Source: Smittium mucronatum
Lineage: Eukaryota; Kickxellomycota; Harpellomycetes; Harpellales; Legeriomycetaceae
Reading direction: 5' to 3'
DNA: 64,000 nucleotides
NCBI GenBank assembly: GCA_001953115.1
Contig: LSSL01000593.1
Location: 25,902-89,901 of the forward strand
Below the pieces are notes generated by a model that did no database searches, was not told the origin of the DNA, and saw only the letters and a program-made list of their open reading frames with translations. Below are positions 31,105 to 64,000 of this stretch, piece by piece. The translations under genes were made by a program, and so were the position numbers. How positions within the stretch are numbered: position 1 is the first letter of the stretch; each line of letters starts with the position of its first letter.

Positions 31105-34100
31105 TTCTTTTGCTATTTAATTTTGGGATAGCCAACGTGGAAAAAATACTAAAAAAATATCTAAAAATATCGGGAAAAAATATAGTAAATTTTAATCAAT
31201 AAAATTGAAAAAATTCTAAAAAAATATCGAAGTACCATCCATGAATTTTTTTTTTCAAAATCACTAATTAAATCAACGAAAATACTATAAAAAAGCCCCT
31301 GAAATCTGAAATTAGGACCAAAGTCAGGTCATATATTCTCATTGTCAAAATAGTCCACGAACAGATCTTTTAGGAGGATTGATAGTCATTCTGAAACATA
31401 TTTATATTAGTGGCTCAGAATTTCAGACAGGTAGTCGAAATGCTTATATTTAACACCAGTTCTGGATTCTTTGAACAAAAATGCAAAGCATAAATCAGAA
31501 ATTGAGATTTTAGAATAAAACCCGGTTTTTTTCGATTTCAACACCCATTTTTTAAAAATTTTCTTTGAAGCCCATGATTATAATACAGTTTTCGGCCCCA
31601 ATACCGGCGGTAAAAATTTTAATAGTCTGATTTTGCTTTTTTTTTAATAAAACTTGATTTTCGAAAAAAATATTCTTTTTTATTTTGAGTAATAATTCTG
31701 GTTTTTCAGAAGATTGATCTTCTGAGCTTACAGATCTAATTTTTTGTAAGATTTTTTCTTCTTTTTACATATTAAACACATAAAAGTCATTTTTTTACTT
31801 TTTTTAAAAGAATTTGGGAAGAGGTGATAGAAATTGCTAATCCTCAATTTAATTTCATGATGATACTGAATTATTTTCTAGCATACTTTTAAATTTTGAA
31901 TTTTCTAAATATTTTATGGGAAAATCTGTGTATTTCCAATTTTTCTGCAAAAAACAGCATACATTAGATAAATATCGGTCTTATTTTTTAAGTTATTTTA
32001 TGATAAACTGTTCAATATTAGCAAGTACAATCGTAAGCAGTGGATATATATTTTTATTTCCAAAAAAATCAAAACATCTTCTTTCTGCCTTTTGTTTTTC
32101 ATCGTTATATTAGGAATTTCTAATATTAAATTCCATCTATCAGAGCTTTTTCCTGGAAATAAAATCGATTAAAAGCCTAAGTATTTTATTTTTGACCGAA
32201 GTGAGCCTCGAGTGTTTTATTTAGAGATATTTTAAGTTTATTCATAGTTGCTTAAAATTCGGACCCAGTTATTGAGCTAGACCTTTCCCCAATTCAATAA
32301 GGCTAAAAAAATATTCAAAAAACTCTTTTATTGAGTTACAATAAACCTTCATGGCATACTTGTAGAGCATTTTTGAACTTTTTCTGCTTCTTGAAGGGCT
32401 TAAATTTCATAATTTTTTATTTGATCTGTAAATTTAATGTGATATCCTATTGACTGAAATTATAATATTTATTATTATTTGTTGTTCGAAGAATGGAAAT
32501 TTGCTTTAAAAGTGTAAATGTGCTAAAGCTAAATAGTAACTTGCTAAAATATTATAGATTTTTCCTGATATAAAATTTCGTGTTAAATAGTATAAGAGAT
32601 GTAAAGGTAAAATCACACCGTTTGATTTAATAAATATATAAAAATCTTTTCTCAAAATTAGTTTTACACAACATAGATTTTTATTTTTTTATTTTTCAAA
32701 TTTTCAATTTTTTCCTCCAATATTTCGGTAATTCTAAGGCTTAAGCTTTTATGAAAAGGAGTATGACGAGAAACTACTTCTATATGAATATTGCATCACT
32801 TTTTTCCCATATATTTATATCCATTTCACAATTATCCGAATCGAGACATGAGCCCAGCGTTAATATATTTAAATAGAAACTAAGAATTTTTTTAAAGCTG
32901 AAAATTATTTCTTTTGATTTTTTGATTTTCAAAATACGTCATATCTATAATAATAAAGATTATTTGAAGTTAAAAAATAATCACATCACCCTTTTTTTGA
33001 GTAGCTGCGAAAGATGTACATACAGCAGGATAATTATTTTTAGCATCTTTTGTCGATTATATATACATTTTTATAAGCAGTTAGCTAGCAGTTCATTTAA
33101 AATTAAGGTGTTAAATTCTTAGTCTTATTCTTGAAAAAATTACAATAATAATTGTTACATGGTTATAATTATTATTAATTCAATATTGATTAGTTAATTT
33201 TCGTTAAAATTTAATGATAAAAAAAATATTTAGACACTCTTTACACAAGTCATTAAACAAATACTTACATTTCAAAGACTTAGAGAGTCAAAAAGCATTT
33301 TCGGATCATTTTTCTGGTTAATTTTACACTATATATTGCAATTATTATTTTTTCATCATCTTTTTTAACGATAATATAATTTTTATTTACATTCAGATAT
33401 TTTTTTTGGGAATATTTTCAATTAATAAATATTGATTAAGATATTCAAATAATTAAAATCAAGTTTTAAATTGGAATTGGCCTTATTAAACACATTTAAA
33501 TATAAAAGTGCTTATATCAAAATCGGTCACGAAATAAATTATCTTTAGAGCATTTCTATTTTAGAGCTGATATTAAGTACTTCAAACAAAAAAACTAAAA
33601 TTTCTGCATCTTCGATTTCTTCATGGCAATTTCGGTGTTAATACACCCCTATATTTCGTTATATTATTCTAATACCGAAAATATAATTTAAAGGATTTTT
33701 ATTATATTTGGGGTTTGTTAAAAGCATTAAGGCACTTTTATTCTGAAGTTGTTACTATTTTTGGCTTTACGAAGCTTATCGCTATTTTTTTTATCCTATG
33801 GTAGCCTTTTTAAAAGCCCGAGCCTTGCAAAAAGAGCTATTTCTCGCTGAAAAAGCCAGTTAAAATTGAAACTAAGGTATCTCTTTATTCTTTTAAAATT
33901 TTTTAAGAACAAAAAAATAGAATTGATTTTTTTATTATTAAATGTTAATTAAATTGGATTTATTGATAATGAAGGTTGTAATTAAATATAATATAAAAAT
34001 CGATCCTTAATTACACCCTTTTCAAAATTCTTTTGCTTCTTTATAGATGAATTTATATACGTAATGCCCATGCTATTAGCATACCAAATAATATTTATGA

Positions 34101-35035: not shown

Positions 35036-36578
35036 TTTTTATATTGGACCAAAATATTCTGGAATATTATAAAAATATTTATTTATATATTTGCCACAAA
35101 TCAATATGAAATTTATAAAATGCCTTAGAATTAAAATTTTCAATTGACCATAATTTTTTATTTTAAAAAAATATGTTTAATGCGAACCATGCTATTTATT
35201 TTAAAAATTAAAAATTAAAAATTAAAAAAATATAAATGAGATAAAAAAATACTTGGTATAGATATTATTAAATATATATTTTTTCGATTTACTTGAAAAA
35301 ACCCCACCCTAAAGATAATTCTAAATCTAGAATGGAAAAAATAGTAGAAATATATCGATATCTTTGTAAAAAATAATCAATTATTTTATAAATTTACTAA
35401 TTGCCAATAATACTGAATAAAAAATAATCAATCACTCTATGATTTAGAGAATTGCCAAAAAATGATATAAATTATATAATTAAATAACTTACATAATTTA
35501 TGCCGTTTAATTGATTCAAAATTTTTTATAGTATATATATTATGTAATATTGATCTCCATGTGGCTGAAATCCGATACAGACGGATTTTATCCGATTTGT
35601 GTAGATTTAATCGCCCATGTGAATTTGGTTCATTTGGGTTGATTTTACTCCTATGCGAATTAAAAATTTCATCCTATTGGGATATCATATTTTTAATATG
35701 AAAAAATTAGCGAGTTGAACCAAATAAATCGCTTTTTTTTTTCTAATATGGATTTGGATTTCATTTATAAAAATTCCTTAAAATATTATTTTGACAAGTG
35801 AGTATTTTTTTAAAACTAACCCATTTTAATTCAGCGTAACACATCCCCTCCACCAATTTTCAGCATCAAGAACCGCAATAATACCTGTAAAGTTAAATAT
35901 AGGAACCTTATAATGTGCTTAAGACTCAGAATCGACAATTGACAGGATATCAAGATGATCAAAAAGCGGCAAATTTCGGATCATATCTTTCAAAAGATTA
36001 TAAAGAAGAGTTTTAACAGTTAAGCTCGCATGCTTTATTTTTTTAAAAAGGCGATATTGAATTAAAAAACTTTTTCAAAATTGAAGAAATTTATCTAAAG
36101 TATTTGAAATTTGGTAAGCATTTTTGTTATAATTTTATATTTTTGATTTGGGAAGCGAGATTTCGATCTTTAGCGGTATATAAATGGCAAATAAATCAGA
36201 AATTTATTTGGATAAGTTGACGAAATTTCTAGAATTTGCAAAAAAGGATAAGAAATAAAAATAAAAATGAGGTTAAGGTTAAGGTTAAGGGTAGGAGAAG
36301 AAGCCCAGTATTATATCCATGCTGGTATTTTTGAAAAGGTGTTAAGTCAGATAACATTTATAATTTAATTGTTTATTTATATAAATTCGATTTTTTTTGG
36401 AATTTAATATTATTCACCCGTTTATTTTACTTTTAAGAGGGGTTTTCTGATAATGATTTTAAATAAAGTTTTTTTGTTTTCTGTATCAATTTACAATCCA
36501 TAATAAAATAAAACACAATATAATTCATAAAAATTAAACTATATTGTGTTTGTTTTAAAGAATACAACTTTTGTTAAA
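35036..36578. repeat. Left arm of 1,543-bp inverted repeat
   Basis: The reverse complement recurs at 38474-40016. Position pairs sum to 75052 at both the inner and outer ends, so there is no net insertion or deletion between the arms. Every internal stretch I compared is identical. The outer boundary is sharp (G at 35035 against T at 40017), as is the inner one (36578/38474). The arm is AT-rich and non-coding, includes three GGTTAA units at 36271-36288 and ends in a small hairpin (36511-36551). No target duplication is visible next to the arms. Confidence 0.95.
36511..36551. repeat. Hairpin at inner edge of left arm
   Basis: AAACACAATATA and its exact reverse complement (36540-36551) with a 17-nt loop, 27 bp from the inner end of the arm. 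The same structure is mirrored at 38501-38541 in the right arm. Confidence 0.85.
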
Positions 36579-38473
36579 TTTACTTAATTTTGTATTATTT
36601 TTTTTTAGTCAATCTGTTTTTTTATTTATATGAGCCTAAAGCGATTTTCAACAATCTTATTTGAATTTTCAAAAATATAAAAAATAAAAAACAATTTCTA
36701 TTCACATTAATCAGAACTTATACCAAATTCAATTCTACACTCAAAAATATTCGCCAATCTAAATAAAAAATTTATTATTATGTAAAATTGTTTGTGAAAA
36801 TAGATTTAAATTTATCCAAAGCTAAAATTAAATATATCAAAAGGAAATATTTTACCAAAAACGGCACAGTTTTACATATAATATAATCCAATAGAACCTT
36901 AAAATATTTAGAAAAATAAAATTATTTCGATTTAATTAAGGGAATTCACTACGGCTTAGCACAACCGGGTGCTTAAACCCCCTGAAAAAATATATTAAAT
37001 ATATTTTACATACCCACTAAATATAATGTAAGAATTTTTGTTCAAACTTGCCCTAAATACAAAAAAATGAAATTTTTTGGTTTCAATATCTTCAGAAAGT
37101 GTTTTTGATAAAGTAGAACTTGGACTTATTAATATGAAAAGCTTCCCTAGAGGCGATTTAAATTACTTATTTTACGCAGTAGATCATTTAAAAATACTTT
37201 AATTTGGCGTCACCACTCAGAAAAAAATCATGCTATGAAGTGTTATCAACGCTGAAATTTTTCATTTATATTTTTTCCATTATACCAAAGCCGATCCAAG
37301 TTGATAATGAAAGATGATTTTTTAAGAGAGAATCCATTGAATTTTCAACAGTATTGACAGGAAATACTCCAGTTTTTATTGCCCCGAGAAACCTTTAAAC
37401 CAACGGGATGAAAAACAGACTCACTTAACTCTATATACCAGAATAAATGTTTTAATGGAGGATAAAGTAATTAGATAACAGTATAGGTGTTTTATTTCAT
37501 TTTTTAAAAAGTCTTATAAATTAATTAAAGAAAGTATTTTCTTATAAAAATTAAATCATTAAAATGAATTATTTTATAATTATATCTATTATTTAGATTG
37601 ATAACTTATTTTCTTATTTCATGGATTTATTTGACAGTAGAATTATAAAAATTCCACCTTCTAAAGCCTTTTTTTTATAGGAATCCTGCATAAGAATATT
37701 TTTTTTATCAGATAAATCTTGGATGGCCCAAATTAGAAAATTTGATAATATGTACAGAAGCTCATATGAATTTTTAAATATTGGAGTATCCAAAATCAAT
37801 AAACAGTTATTAAATAACCAATAAAATGATGCGTATCTCATCCTATCTCAAGATTTCAACATTCAAATGGAGCAAACCGATTCTGAATTCCGGAATAATA
37901 TTAGAAAATTTTGCTGGTTATGGAGAATAAATAGATCAAAGTATTGAATCATTAGAGTCAAAAAAGACTTTAATTTAATCGAAAAGAAACGAGGGGTTAA
38001 CAATGCAAATGGTGGCATCTGAAAATAATGAAAGGATAGCTATATATGAGATAGGTGACAAGTAAAAAAAAAGTTCCAAAAGAGGATCAAATAGAATAGG
38101 GAACATATTTTTATTAGGTGTAGTACTTGAATTCTTAAAGGAAATTTTAAAATCGGAACTGAATTCAGGAATTTGGAAAGAAATCTTCACAAGAAACATC
38201 TTCAAAAATTTGACTGTGGTAAAAAAATAACGGTAACGGCAATAAAAATCTGAAAAATGGAGACATTTAAAAAGGCTTCTGTGTAGATTTGCGCATTTAA
38301 ATTAAGTGCGCATACAAAAAGAGGTAATAGGGGGAATAAATCAAATTTATGAAGAGAGAGAAAAAATTCTCTGTCTTATTTCGTCTTGATAATATCATAC
38401 CTTTTAGAATTGCGATCAAAATCACACATGCAAAAGTATTGAATCGGTTTCAGATTTTTAATGAAAATTAAAT
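36579..38473. other. 1,895-bp unique core between the inverted arms
   Basis: Somewhat less AT-rich than the arms. It contains two consecutive minus-strand frames, about 37975-38205 (ATG at codon 3) and 37614-37841 (ATG, 75 codons). They could be pieces of one decayed gene, but neither shows a recognised transposase or other domain. A plus-strand patch at 37080-37320 looks coding-like but is broken by stops. If the whole 4.98-kb unit is a transposon, this is where a transposase would have been. Confidence 0.5.
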
Positions 38474-40016
38474 TTTAACAAAAGTTGTATTCTTTAAAAC
38501 AAACACAATATAGTTTAATTTTTATGAATTATATTGTGTTTTATTTTATTATGGATTGTAAATTGATACAGAAAACAAAAAAACTTTATTTAAAATCATT
38601 ATCAGAAAACCCCTCTTAAAAGTAAAATAAACGGGTGAATAATATTAAATTCCAAAAAAAATCGAATTTATATAAATAAACAATTAAATTATAAATGTTA
38701 TCTGACTTAACACCTTTTCAAAAATACCAGCATGGATATAATACTGGGCTTCTTCTCCTACCCTTAACCTTAACCTTAACCTCATTTTTATTTTTATTTC
38801 TTATCCTTTTTTGCAAATTCTAGAAATTTCGTCAACTTATCCAAATAAATTTCTGATTTATTTGCCATTTATATACCGCTAAAGATCGAAATCTCGCTTC
38901 CCAAATCAAAAATATAAAATTATAACAAAAATGCTTACCAAATTTCAAATACTTTAGATAAATTTCTTCAATTTTGAAAAAGTTTTTTAATTCAATATCG
39001 CCTTTTTAAAAAAATAAAGCATGCGAGCTTAACTGTTAAAACTCTTCTTTATAATCTTTTGAAAGATATGATCCGAAATTTGCCGCTTTTTGATCATCTT
39101 GATATCCTGTCAATTGTCGATTCTGAGTCTTAAGCACATTATAAGGTTCCTATATTTAACTTTACAGGTATTATTGCGGTTCTTGATGCTGAAAATTGGT
39201 GGAGGGGATGTGTTACGCTGAATTAAAATGGGTTAGTTTTAAAAAAATACTCACTTGTCAAAATAATATTTTAAGGAATTTTTATAAATGAAATCCAAAT
39301 CCATATTAGAAAAAAAAAAGCGATTTATTTGGTTCAACTCGCTAATTTTTTCATATTAAAAATATGATATCCCAATAGGATGAAATTTTTAATTCGCATA
39401 GGAGTAAAATCAACCCAAATGAACCAAATTCACATGGGCGATTAAATCTACACAAATCGGATAAAATCCGTCTGTATCGGATTTCAGCCACATGGAGATC
39501 AATATTACATAATATATATACTATAAAAAATTTTGAATCAATTAAACGGCATAAATTATGTAAGTTATTTAATTATATAATTTATATCATTTTTTGGCAA
39601 TTCTCTAAATCATAGAGTGATTGATTATTTTTTATTCAGTATTATTGGCAATTAGTAAATTTATAAAATAATTGATTATTTTTTACAAAGATATCGATAT
39701 ATTTCTACTATTTTTTCCATTCTAGATTTAGAATTATCTTTAGGGTGGGGTTTTTTCAAGTAAATCGAAAAAATATATATTTAATAATATCTATACCAAG
39801 TATTTTTTTATCTCATTTATATTTTTTTAATTTTTAATTTTTAATTTTTAAAATAAATAGCATGGTTCGCATTAAACATATTTTTTTAAAATAAAAAATT
39901 ATGGTCAATTGAAAATTTTAATTCTAAGGCATTTTATAAATTTCATATTGATTTGTGGCAAATATATAAATAAATATTTTTATAATATTCCAGAATATTT
40001 TGGTCCAATATAAAAA
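38474..40016. repeat. Right arm of 1,543-bp inverted repeat
   Basis: Reverse complement of 35036-36578; see the left arm. The hairpin is mirrored at 38501-38541 and the TTAACC units at about 38764-38781. Confidence 0.95.
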
Positions 40017-40302: not shown

Positions 40303-41590
40303 CAAAATCATAACAAATCAAGCTGAATTTAAATTTGATCAACTCAAAATCTCACATCCATCACCAAAAGTACGTTTTACAAGCACTTTTCATCACCGAA
40401 ATCTTAAATCTATCACCAAAAAAAATTATCTTTTTTTTATTGGCCATTTTTTATTCACAAAAATATGCTTCAGTAGGGAAAATTTTTTGATGGCATTTAA
40501 AAACCCCGTGAAAATATTCTTTTTCATTTTATAATATTAAAGACTTTAAAAAATAAAGTAAATATTTAAAGATGGTTTAAGCTATCTTCTTTATAATGAA
40601 GCTTTCTAAACCTCTATGCATTACTCTCTAAACTTGGATAAAGATGTTTTTAAAGAAATTTCTAAACAAATAAGAATGTTTTTTCTTGAATTTTAAATTA
40701 TTTCAATTTATCAATATGTATCACAACAAACCTTATTAATTATATAGCATTCATTGAAAGAACATTTGAATATCCAAGCATTATAATTACGATTCTGTAG
40801 GCAAATAGGGCGCTTTATTAACATGTTATGTCATAATACATCTCTTTCCGTAAGCCTGGGGGATTAAACTCCTACATATATGTTTCTGTCCAATAAAATG
40901 TTTTTGGGTCGAGTTCTCTAATTTTTTTTCATTGATTTTTTTTCAAAAAAAGAAAAAAATTCATGTCAAATGATTTTGAAGAAATTTTAGATCTTGTTTG
41001 TTTCTTTTTACAAAAAATATATTGTATATAAACATCAAAAAAAATAAAAACTAACGGATTACAATTATGGGGTATAATTAGATTTAACGAAGCCATCTTA
41101 AAACATCTTAAACCATCTTAAACCATCAAATTCCACCTGTAAATCATGGGAATGGTTTAATTATTTAAGACTTTTTTATATTATGTTTAGCAACTTCTAT
41201 TGTTTAAAATTTTTGTTTCCGAAATTTCAAAATCTAATATAGAATCAATCTAAGGAAGAAATTATCAATTTTATGACCTGTTTAATTTATATTAATGATC
41301 TTAAATTCACCTTTGAATATATTTAATCGCATTATATTCTTTCAAATATTTAATATTATAAAATGAAAACGATTATTTGCACAGGTTTCTTAATTGCCAT
41401 CTAAAAGGTTTCCCCATTGGAGCATATTTTTGTGGAAAAAAAATGGCCAATAAAAAAAAGATAATTTTTTTTGGTGATGGAGTTAAGATTTCGGTGATGA
41501 AAAGTGCTTGTAAAAAGTATTTTTGGTGATGTATGTGAGATTTTGAGTAGATAGCATTTAAATTTGTCTTAATTGGTTATTATTATGAAT
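40303..41590. mobile_element. Inverted-repeat element, about 1.29 kb
   Basis: Inverted arms of about 240 bp (about 40303-40541 and 41349-41590) share long words, for example CTCAAAATCTCACAT (40343-40357) against its complement at 41533-41547, and CATTTTATAATATTAAA at the inner edge. Position pairs sum to 81890 at both ends. Identity is lower than in the neighbouring 1.5-kb repeat, so this is older. The 0.8-kb interior has no frame of note, which suggests a non-autonomous DNA element. The arms contain repeated ATCACCAAA words and resemble those of the element at 11020-12355. Confidence 0.7.
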
Positions 41591-61489: not shown

Positions 61490-62112
61490 CTCCTAAGAGA
61501 TAAATACCTTGCAGTGGTTTAGGGGCTTAATATTGTACTTTTCGAAGTACAATAGGCCAAAATTTCTCATAGAGTTGTACTATTCTTGTTTATGAGTATT
61601 GGAGACATCGAAAAACGATTAGGAGGACAGATACTCTAGAGGAGAGTCATCTAGAAACGGGAGGAACCGATCGTTTAGCACAGCTGAGACATATACTAGT
61701 TTGCAAGTCCAGCGTTCGACGGTCAGACGGATCTAAGAGTCTAATATCTATTTGCAGGAAAGCCATTTCGATCAATCCCACGTTTAGGTATGAGCCTGAT
61801 TTTATTAATCCTGTTAGAAGTAGGCTCTGAATAGGAGCTCAGTAGATTAAATGAACTATTTTTCTTTGACAAAGAGTTTAATTCTTGACTTAACGTAACC
61901 ACAGTCATCCAGCCTACTTGAAGCAATGTCAGGGGGGGTCTTTCGGTTAGTAGATTGAACCCTTGTTCCGTAGGTATTCAGCCAGTAGACCGACAGATGA
62001 GCTTATTGTAGTTAGTATAATAGTATTTTATATATTACTTTTTCTTTTTTTAATATTTTTTTAGTATATTTTTTAATGAATTATCTTACAATAAAATTAT
62101 GTGATAAATAAA
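61490..62112 (+). mobile_element. Non-LTR retrotransposon 3' region, plus copy
   Basis: Moderate-GC body (about 61490-62030) ending in an AT-rich 3' trailer with CTTACAATAAAATTATGTGA and an A-rich end. From 61957 to the end it is the inverted counterpart of 63839-64000. A plus-strand frame of about 80 codons runs from about 61572 to a TGA near 61830, with no recognised domain; it could be the end of the element's polyprotein. The minus-strand frame at 61741-61926 opens with TTG. The 5' boundary is not defined. Confidence 0.6.
61531..61554 (+). other. Perfect hairpin with TTCG tetraloop
   Basis: TATTGTACTT, then TTCG, then the exact reverse complement of the first ten bases. As RNA this is a 10-bp stem with a UUCG loop, a very stable class of tetraloop. 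It lies at the 5' side of the moderate-GC body of the plus retrotransposon copy. Confidence 0.85.
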
Positions 62113-63838: not shown

Positions 63839-64000
63839 TTTTTTTTTAAGTATCACGGAATTTTATTGTAAGATAATGTCATTAAAAACTATACTAAAAA
63901 AATTTGAAAAAAAGAAAAAGACGTATAGAAAAGACTATTATCCTAACTACAATAAGCTCCTCTGCCGGACTACCGGCTGCGTACCTACGGGAAAAGGGTT
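63839..64000 (-). mobile_element. Non-LTR retrotransposon 3' end, minus copy, continuing past the window
   Basis: Read on the minus strand it runs from moderate-GC sequence (CGTAGGTACGCAGCCGGTAG region) through an AT trailer to CTTACAATAAAATTCC-GTGATAC and an A-tail with two T interruptions. It is intact at the 3' end, and the body would lie beyond position 64000. Over the aligned 68-bp moderate-GC part it differs from the plus copy at about ten sites, and at eight of these the plus copy has A or T in place of G or C, so this copy is probably the younger. Confidence 0.7.

Follow-up and report, generated by a model that had tools for sequence, protein, structure and literature searches.

A large perfect inverted repeat in Smittium mucronatum is very probably a dead integrase-type DNA transposon with arms homogenised by gene conversion

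The window analyzed here, 64,000 nucleotides of Smittium mucronatum (contig LSSL01000593.1, positions 25,902 to 89,901 of the forward strand), contains a large inverted repeat that is very probably a dead cut-and-paste-type DNA transposon with long terminal inverted repeats (TIRs), an rve and H2C2 transposase, and arms homogenised by gene conversion. An earlier note on this DNA had described 1,543-bp arms that were identical wherever compared, with position pairs summing to 75052 and no net gaps, and had called for a base-by-base alignment. This comparison revealed 0 mismatches over the full arm length after reverse-complementing one arm, and every pair of positions gives the same sum. The match ends precisely at 35036/40016 on the outer side and at 36578/38474 on the inner side, and the unique core, estimated earlier at about 1.9 kb, measures 1,895 bp. 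The GC content is 23% in the arms, 26% in the core, and 25% in the window, and the locus sits in an AT-rich stretch with few protein genes. As the only other inverted pairs of at least 80 nt listed by a repeat search of the window are short and diverged (253 nt at 86%, 122 nt at 86%, and 82 nt at 80%), a chance origin of the perfect 1,543-bp match can be ruled out. The inverted pair at 61958-62079 and 63879-64000 was also considered as a second element and rejected, because a dispersed repeat of ~160 bp, present there in both orientations, accounts for it. The features of the locus are listed in Table 1.

Table 1. Features of the inverted repeat and its core, in window coordinates
Feature	Position	Strand	Evidence
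Left arm: TIR plus 498-bp overshoot past the family's terminal motif	35036..36578	+	0/1543 mismatches versus right arm; relatives 66-77%
Outer 498 bp of left arm	35036..35533	+	No relative matched in contig search; read as flank absorbed into the inverted repeat
Terminal motif TATRTTTTATGTRATCTTGAT (2 mismatches)	35534..35554	+	498 bp inside the inverted repeat here; in C791/C1471 and C883 it sits where repeat gives way to flank
Two subterminal GGATTTRATC-like repeats, 20 bp apart	35583..35612	+	Pattern match
Unique core, 1,895 bp	36579..38473	+	Relatives' cores: 1864 bp (C791), ~1863 bp (C2874), 1821 bp (C883)
Decayed integrase-type DDE transposase	36719..37475	+	P0121 residues 10-267; frames +2, +3, +1, +3; at least 8 stops
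Remnant of transposase C-terminal part	38143..38325	+	Matches open stretch of C2874, E 1.8e-6
Right arm, exact reverse complement of left arm	38474..40016	-	Base-by-base comparison
Subterminal repeats, right arm	39440..39469	-	Pattern match
Terminal motif TATRTTTTATGTRATCTTGAT, right-arm copy	39498..39518	-	Same motif match

Where the earlier note had seen no transposase, the core proved to be a broken integrase-type transposase gene. A non-coding core had been considered, as the list of open reading frames and a Pfam scan of two core reading frames were blank, but it was dropped when the transposase emerged via relatives. In tblastn searches, P0121, a 273-aa protein of Smittium culicis, matched the window with an E value of 7e-31 and one further stretch with 3e-20. 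This protein, which may be partial and is called 'SCAN domain-containing protein 3' by its source, contains rve (E 8.4e-11) and Integrase_H2C2 (E 3.2e-8) domains. Its match in the window is interrupted by at least eight stops and three frameshifts and reads E-L-G-L-I-N where P0121 has E-I-D-L-I-D, with a glycine replacing what we take to be the first catalytic aspartate of this transposase family. P0121 also matched the cores of C2454, C2874, C883, C791, and C1278; all six cores are decayed, while the S. culicis relative is open over its 273 aa. Pfam rve was found above cut-off in an open 78-aa stretch of C2454 (E 9.9e-10) and in a read-through of that copy, and below cut-off in the C791 core piece; neither the C883 core piece nor the joined core frames of the window gave a Pfam match, and the homology of the window core rests on tblastn. 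No intact element was found among the copies read, which are smaller than those located at C1983:42395-48970 and C818:21614-26333.

Contig searches of this genome, whose assembly is fragmented (2,957 contigs), found arm or core matches on 45 contigs and an inverted arm pair in nine; the count of 45 omits 14 contigs matching only the first 374 query bases, and that of nine does not count C203 beside C1256. In one copy, on C1278, an arm is missing next to a different dispersed repeat. The earlier note had held that multiple copies with short target duplications would point to an ordinary long-TIR transposon: the copies exist, but no clear duplications were detected. Comparison of flanks detected no target-site duplication at the window copy (labelled C464), C791/C1471, C883, or C1371/C141. 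For the window copy, this agrees with what the note had reported, the longest word common to both flanks being 5 bp, a length reached or exceeded by 366 of 1,000 random flank pairs. TATATA occurs on both flanks of C883 and is of low complexity; a target-site duplication of such age, in TA-rich flanks, could be unrecognisable.

A strong contrast was observed between arm identity within and between loci. Four loci have the complete arm pair on a single contig, and identity between their arms is 98.5-100%: 1543/1543 in the window, one homopolymer base of difference in ~900 at C791, 855/857 at C883, where the two mismatches lie within the outermost 5 bp, and 473/479 aligned positions plus one gap at C2874 (7/480 differences), where four differences lie inside the arm and not at its ends. 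The C1371/C141 arms, which are found at the ends of two contigs, differ in their flanks, and were taken as one element, are identical at 898/906 positions; all but one of the 8 differences fall within the outermost 81 bp. Between loci, identity is 63-77% within the subfamily of the window and 63-84% for most loci, the best being 87% over ~550 bp (C2232). The exception is C2187, which is 100% identical to the C2874 left arm over 515 bp. Since the C2874 right arm differs from the left and does not fit this match, C2187 was dropped as the other flank of C2874 and could instead represent a redundant contig or a copy made recently.

The core offers an estimate of how far the arms should have diverged. 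At least 8 stops in ~255 aligned codons, with 4.6-6.6% of substitutions creating a stop, correspond to ~0.16-0.23 substitutions per site. Several hundred differences would thus be expected between independently decaying arms, and the window shows 0. Because none of the predicted differences is present, the most likely explanation is that the arms have been kept matched to each other at the locus itself, with gene conversion as the probable means. Divergence has brought the shorter inverted pairs of the window down to 80-86% identity; the four compared arm pairs of at least 480 bp stay alike. Homogenisation by gene conversion was one of three options left by the earlier note and fits best, whereas a very young structure misfits a core with this many stops and frameshifts. 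The third option, a chimeric or collapsed inverted repeat in the assembly, could draw on the fragmentation of the latter and on several contigs that end inside or beside arms, but we regard it as extremely improbable. True arm differences exist at other loci such as C883 and C2874, the same architecture recurs at loci whose cores are ~55-74% identical, and the arm ends continue into two different flanks on the outside and two distinct ends of the core on the inside, an arrangement requiring four separate junctions. Part of the arm identity in the window could nevertheless reflect assembly collapse.

Two scenarios in which the arms became identical recently were also weighed. A recent inverted segmental duplication at the window locus, or a fold-back repair re-creating the second arm, would explain in one event, with no continuing conversion, both the absence of differences over the arms and an arm end lying 498 bp beyond the terminal motif. 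However, the other three one-contig loci are also near-identical round a homologous core, and each would need an independent recent duplication; we consider this scenario unlikely. Similarly small is the chance that an already dead element was inserted recently in trans, its arms being made identical in transposition. The enzyme of an active relative can mobilise dead transposons, and C2187 could be such a recent copy, but no target duplication was found at four loci, the genome contig searches returned nothing nearly identical to the window element, and arm identity reaches well outside the terminal motif.

The terminal motif coincides with a sharp repeat/flank boundary in C791/C1471 and C883 and, in C2852 and C1278, with the limit of homology. 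Arm identity at the window locus continues past it, and the arm is 1,045 bp when measured from the motif. The subterminal pattern occurs at 135 sites in the genome versus 39 for a reversed-pattern control. Among the matches listed, 12 contigs have sites less than 1 kb from their start, and on 11 of these all such sites are on the minus strand, which is what breakage of contigs inside arms would produce; this strand bias has no control, and it becomes 8 of 9 contigs without C2852, which is one source of the pattern, and C1159 and C1741, which resemble 37-bp arrays. Both motifs are presumed to be transposase sites. In the preferred model, the core is the transposase gene and the arms are its TIRs, with a terminal motif and subterminal repeats spaced by 20 bp. 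The element would have decayed over a long time while its arms, being long, close together, and inverted, were repeatedly repaired from each other by intrachromatid gene conversion, remaining identical to each other and drifting from other copies. At the window locus, the tract being copied may have extended outward by 498 bp, crossing the original end and entering the flank, as would happen in one-ended (break-induced) copying. The alternative that the arms were homogenised when the element last transposed is less favored, since this overshoot points to a change made in place.

The earlier note could fit the structure to no common element family. TIRs bounding a gene that, in the past, encoded an rve-type DDE transposase, together with several genomic copies, now place it among integrase-type DNA transposons as a decayed member. 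Judging by published descriptions, available in part, the closest named kin appear to be Ginger2/Tdd and other Gypsy-integrase-like DNA transposons, the TIRs of which are ~40-300 bp (PMC2836005). Ginger2/Tdd elements share a Gypsy-integrase-like DDE transposase, a single gene between TIRs, and an overall size of ~3.8 kb (TDD-4 is 3,839 bp), but have TIRs of ~50-300 bp (TDD-4 260, TDD-5 297) versus 857-1,543 bp in the S. mucronatum family, and target-site duplications of 4-5 bp where none is clear at four TA-rich S. mucronatum loci (Bao et al. 2010, PMC2836005). Ginger1/GIN elements likewise use an integrase-type transposase, with Ginger1 TIRs of 40-270 bp, but here we saw neither of the features described for Ginger1, the CCGG/CCGT target duplications and the TGTNR ends (PMC2836005, PMC3424704). 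The Foldback-like Galileo of Drosophila has very long TIRs of variable length that are alike within a copy: in the parts of the reports available, GalileoN-1 and -2 TIRs are >99% identical within a copy and differ by ~7% between copies, far less than in the S. mucronatum family, while for GalileoN-4 and -5 the relation is inverted, an outcome ascribed by the authors to recombination between copies (PMC2775673, PMC4168063). Galileo also differs by its P-superfamily transposase and 7-bp target-site duplication.

The layout and identity pattern are also very similar to those of Candida tropicalis centromeres, in which inverted repeats surround a unique mid core and are homogenised within a locus and diverged between loci (in the accessible part of PMC4741521, mid cores share 63% and inverted repeats 82% identity when centromeres are compared, against 93% inside a single centromere). 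A centromere-like locus homogenised per chromosome, a reading raised by the first five loci, would suit the AT-rich, gene-poor setting and a genome that encodes a CENP-A-like H3 (C434:27237-27575) and CENP-C (C1354). It was dropped as highly improbable when weak core matches led to a far larger family and the core turned out to be a transposase. C. tropicalis centromeres are kinetochore sites present once per chromosome; here, the loci are many, although a telomere repeat search, with two overlapping matches on one contig only, gave no usable estimate of the chromosome number, and the C1278 copy with its lost arm also argues against a centromere. Smittium centromeres are not described in the available parts of PMC12611240 or PMC5954228, and a literature search returned nothing on them among the matches listed.

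With the dead transposon, an early-diverging group of fungi gains an integrase-type DNA transposon lineage whose TIRs are exceptionally long; a literature search for such elements in Harpellales returned, among the matches listed, none naming Smittium or Harpellales. Flawless inverted arms around a wrecked gene mean that perfect arm identity cannot be read as youth, and a genome with numerous old and independent mirror pairs would allow measurement of how fast inverted repeats convert each other, how long the converted tracts are, and how short an arm can be. More tentatively, the long terminal repeats of the family might act as self-repairing mirror pairs, with constant conversion that preserves their identity over very long periods, arms growing into host DNA, stable large palindromes at many loci, and possible host use. 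If so, such uses may include double-stranded RNA, fragile sites, or chromosome folding.

Base-by-base alignment of the arms upheld the coordinates, length and identity that the earlier note had given for the inverted repeat, with 0 mismatches over 1,543 bp. These arms are the sole perfect inverted pair of at least 80 nt among the matches listed for the window; two of the remaining three, of 253 and 122 nt, are 86% identical, and the third, of 82 nt, 80%. The surroundings are AT-rich with few protein genes, and the unrelated 253-nt pair nearby appears to be a small TIR element that has decayed. A dispersed repeat of ~160 bp also occurs in the window, and one of its copies stands where the relative on contig C1278 lost its left half.

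Features of the window and of other loci (positions without prefix are in the window; G000, S. mucronatum genome; C-numbers, its contigs; L-numbers, loci examined)
Feature	Position	Size	Remark
Left arm	35036-36578	1,543 bp	0 mismatches to reverse-complemented right arm
Right arm	38474-40016	1,543 bp	position pairs with left arm sum to 75052
Core between arms		1,895 bp	
Terminal motif	35534, mirror at 39518		498 bp inside the arm
Match to P0121	36719-37475		three stretches
C-terminal transposase piece	38143-38325		match E 1.8e-6
Second inverted pair	40303-40555, 41335-41587	253-nt arms	86%; 779 nt apart; 290 bp from main element
DEAD-box helicase and 6-phosphogluconolactonase region	14-17.4 kb		one side of element-bearing stretch
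RabGAP/TBC gene	47.3-50.2 kb		other side of element-bearing stretch; its protein matches one labelled S. mucronatum at 100% identity
tRNA-Thr	26.5 kb		
Dispersed repeat	61958-62112, 63845-64000; L014:2917-3085; L046:4586-4748	~160 bp	copies 82-96% alike
Dispersed repeat flanking the C2454 element	G000:C2454:7600-7973	~350 bp	also on 14 other contigs
Match to C2874 left arm	G000:C2187:14081-14595	515 bp	100%
Inverted subterminal pair	G000:C680:28626-28655 (+), 32297-32326 (-)		3.7 kb apart
Sites spaced by 37 bp	G000:C1159:812-915, C1741:389-455, C2146:17922-17988, C860:13164-13230		fit the GGATTTRATC pair pattern
Integrase-like fragment	L047:6528-6983 (minus strand)		E 1e-6 to P0121
CENP-C homologue	L072 (G000:C1354:37463-37690)		E 3.9e-18
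Diverged histone H3	L065 (G000:C434:27237-27575)		divergent N-terminus, long loop 1

Open stretches in the cores of relatives elsewhere in the genome read as an integrase core. A 78-aa stretch of C2454 passed Pfam rve (E 9.9e-10), while none of six other open stretches passed the cut-off in the same comparison. Reading through C2454 gave one protein match, P0121 of S. culicis (273 aa, rve and Integrase_H2C2 domains), and a second search round added S. angustum P0122 and P0123 (H2C2 only) and three unnamed proteins. The earlier note had seen no transposase, but P0121 matches the window core with E 7e-31 for two stretches (frames +2 and +3) and 3e-20 for one (frame +1), as well as the cores of C2454, C2874, C883, C791 and C1278. 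The best-frame stretches of the window contain 5, 1 and 2 stops (residues 10-126, ~130-173 and 174-245) with three frame changes, and the position that we take to be the first catalytic Asp reads Gly. Since the C2874 reading frame covers nearly its whole core, the core is, in essence, the transposase gene. An integrase-like fragment, perhaps from a Ty3/Gypsy element, lies upstream of the element on C791.

The genome searched for this Harpellales gut fungus (73.8 Mb, 2,957 contigs) is different from the published assembly listed in Table 1 of PMC5954228 (7,797 scaffolds, 102 Mb, 26% GC). Searches with the window arm and core returned relatives at 66-77% identity: C791 with C1471, C1278, C2852, and C1371 with C141. 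C791 carries both arms, with one homopolymer base differing in ~900 arm positions and the other differences falling beyond the inner arm end; by the exact arm end its core is 1,864 bp. C1471 was taken as the continuation of its right arm because it has the same variant and overlaps without difference (495/495). C1371 and C141 each stop within an arm and agree at 898/906 positions, with 7 of 8 differences within the outer 81 bp; their flanks differ, and they were read as the probable termini of a single element.

Two weak core hits, pursued with a profile search, gave C2874 (E 1e-24) and C2454 (E 3e-13), and these as queries yielded many further loci, with 40 of 51 candidates scored for C2454. 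C2874 has a ~1,863-bp core that shares 60% identity with the window core across 617 bp; its arms gave no match to the window arms at E 0.01. Those arms, one cut by the contig end, are 98.5% alike over 480 bp; four of the differences are internal to the arm, and the inner end accounts for three more positions. C883, read complete, has a 1,821-bp core between 857-bp arms whose two mismatches fall within the outer 5 bp. By our count over the window, C2874 and C2454 searches, at least 45 contigs have an arm or core match, leaving out 14 that match only the first 374 bases of the C2454 query because these form a separate dispersed repeat, to which such matches are confined. An inverted arm pair is present on at least nine contigs (C464, the window locus, and C791, C883, C2874, C1256, C818, C2262, C1556 and C1983). 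C203, with scores equal to those of C1256, apparently represents that element again and was left out of the count. Identities to the query were mostly 70-84% for C2874 and mostly 66-79% for C2454, with C2232 at 87% over ~550 bp. C2187 stood out from the other matches: since its perfect match to the C2874 left arm misfits the right arm, which differs, it represents either contig redundancy or a recent copy.

The motif TATRTTTTATGTRATCTTGAT, with 1-3 mismatches, marks the stop of the paired-arm match in C791/C1471 and C883; in C2852 and C1278 homology runs out at the same motif. Within 150 bp of this element end (forward strand, two mismatches allowed), GGATTTRATC occurs twice each in C464 and C791, three times each in C1278 and C2852, four times in C2454 and never in C883. 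For 140 pieces of the surrounding desert, the mean count was 0.13 and the highest 1. Genome-wide, the 20-bp-spaced pair was found 135 times versus 39 for the reversed control (three mismatches allowed). We infer a role for these terminal and subterminal motifs, and movement of the element. The search for other genomic copies proposed in the earlier note found them at many loci, but no target duplication showed at the four loci inspected, as the note had stated for the window copy. The subterminal pattern also occurs as an inverted pair on C680, possibly a further family member, and the 37-bp-spaced sites are perhaps a 37-bp tandem array.

In transposase type and overall size the element is like Ginger2/Tdd, but its TIR length is unlike that of this group, in which TDD-4 measures 3,839 bp with a 260-bp TIR (PMC2836005); on this comparison of type, size and TIR length, we did not assign it there. 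As in Galileo, TIRs are matched within copies while copies differ; Galileo TIRs are over 99% identical within a copy and about 7% different between copies for two copies, with two others the reverse (PMC2775673). The identity pattern also resembles that described for C. tropicalis centromeres (PMC4741521). A centromere reading of the inverted-repeat loci was dropped because of the copy number and the transposase core. S. mucronatum itself seems to have a CENP-A/CENP-C kinetochore, with a CENP-C homologue and a diverged H3 that, on our own reading of its sequence, appears CENP-A-like.

How long the window core has decayed was estimated by back-translating P0121 with local codon usage and applying random substitutions, of which 4.6% (equal) to 6.6% (AT-biased) made stops. 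With 8 stops in ~255 aligned codons, this share gives, by our own arithmetic, roughly 0.16-0.23 substitutions per site since loss of function. For arms that decay independently, several hundred differences over 1,543 sites would be expected, whereas there are none, and C791, C883 and C2874 likewise combine decayed cores with near-identical arms. Between loci, arm identity is 63-75% (five arms, pairwise alignment). The comparison of arms within a locus covered the four loci with both arms readable on one contig. Assembly collapse could have slightly overstated the exact identity at C464. The window arms keep matching for 498 bp beyond the terminal motif, which suggests that one-ended copying lengthened them after insertion. 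Arm differences lie mostly at the outer ends in C883 and C1371/C141, as would be expected where copied tracts run out, but not in C2874. A minimum length for arm-to-arm repair would be in line with the one case of the 253-bp pair, at 86% only 290 bp away. Most likely, the arms are kept alike by conversion between them, in place.
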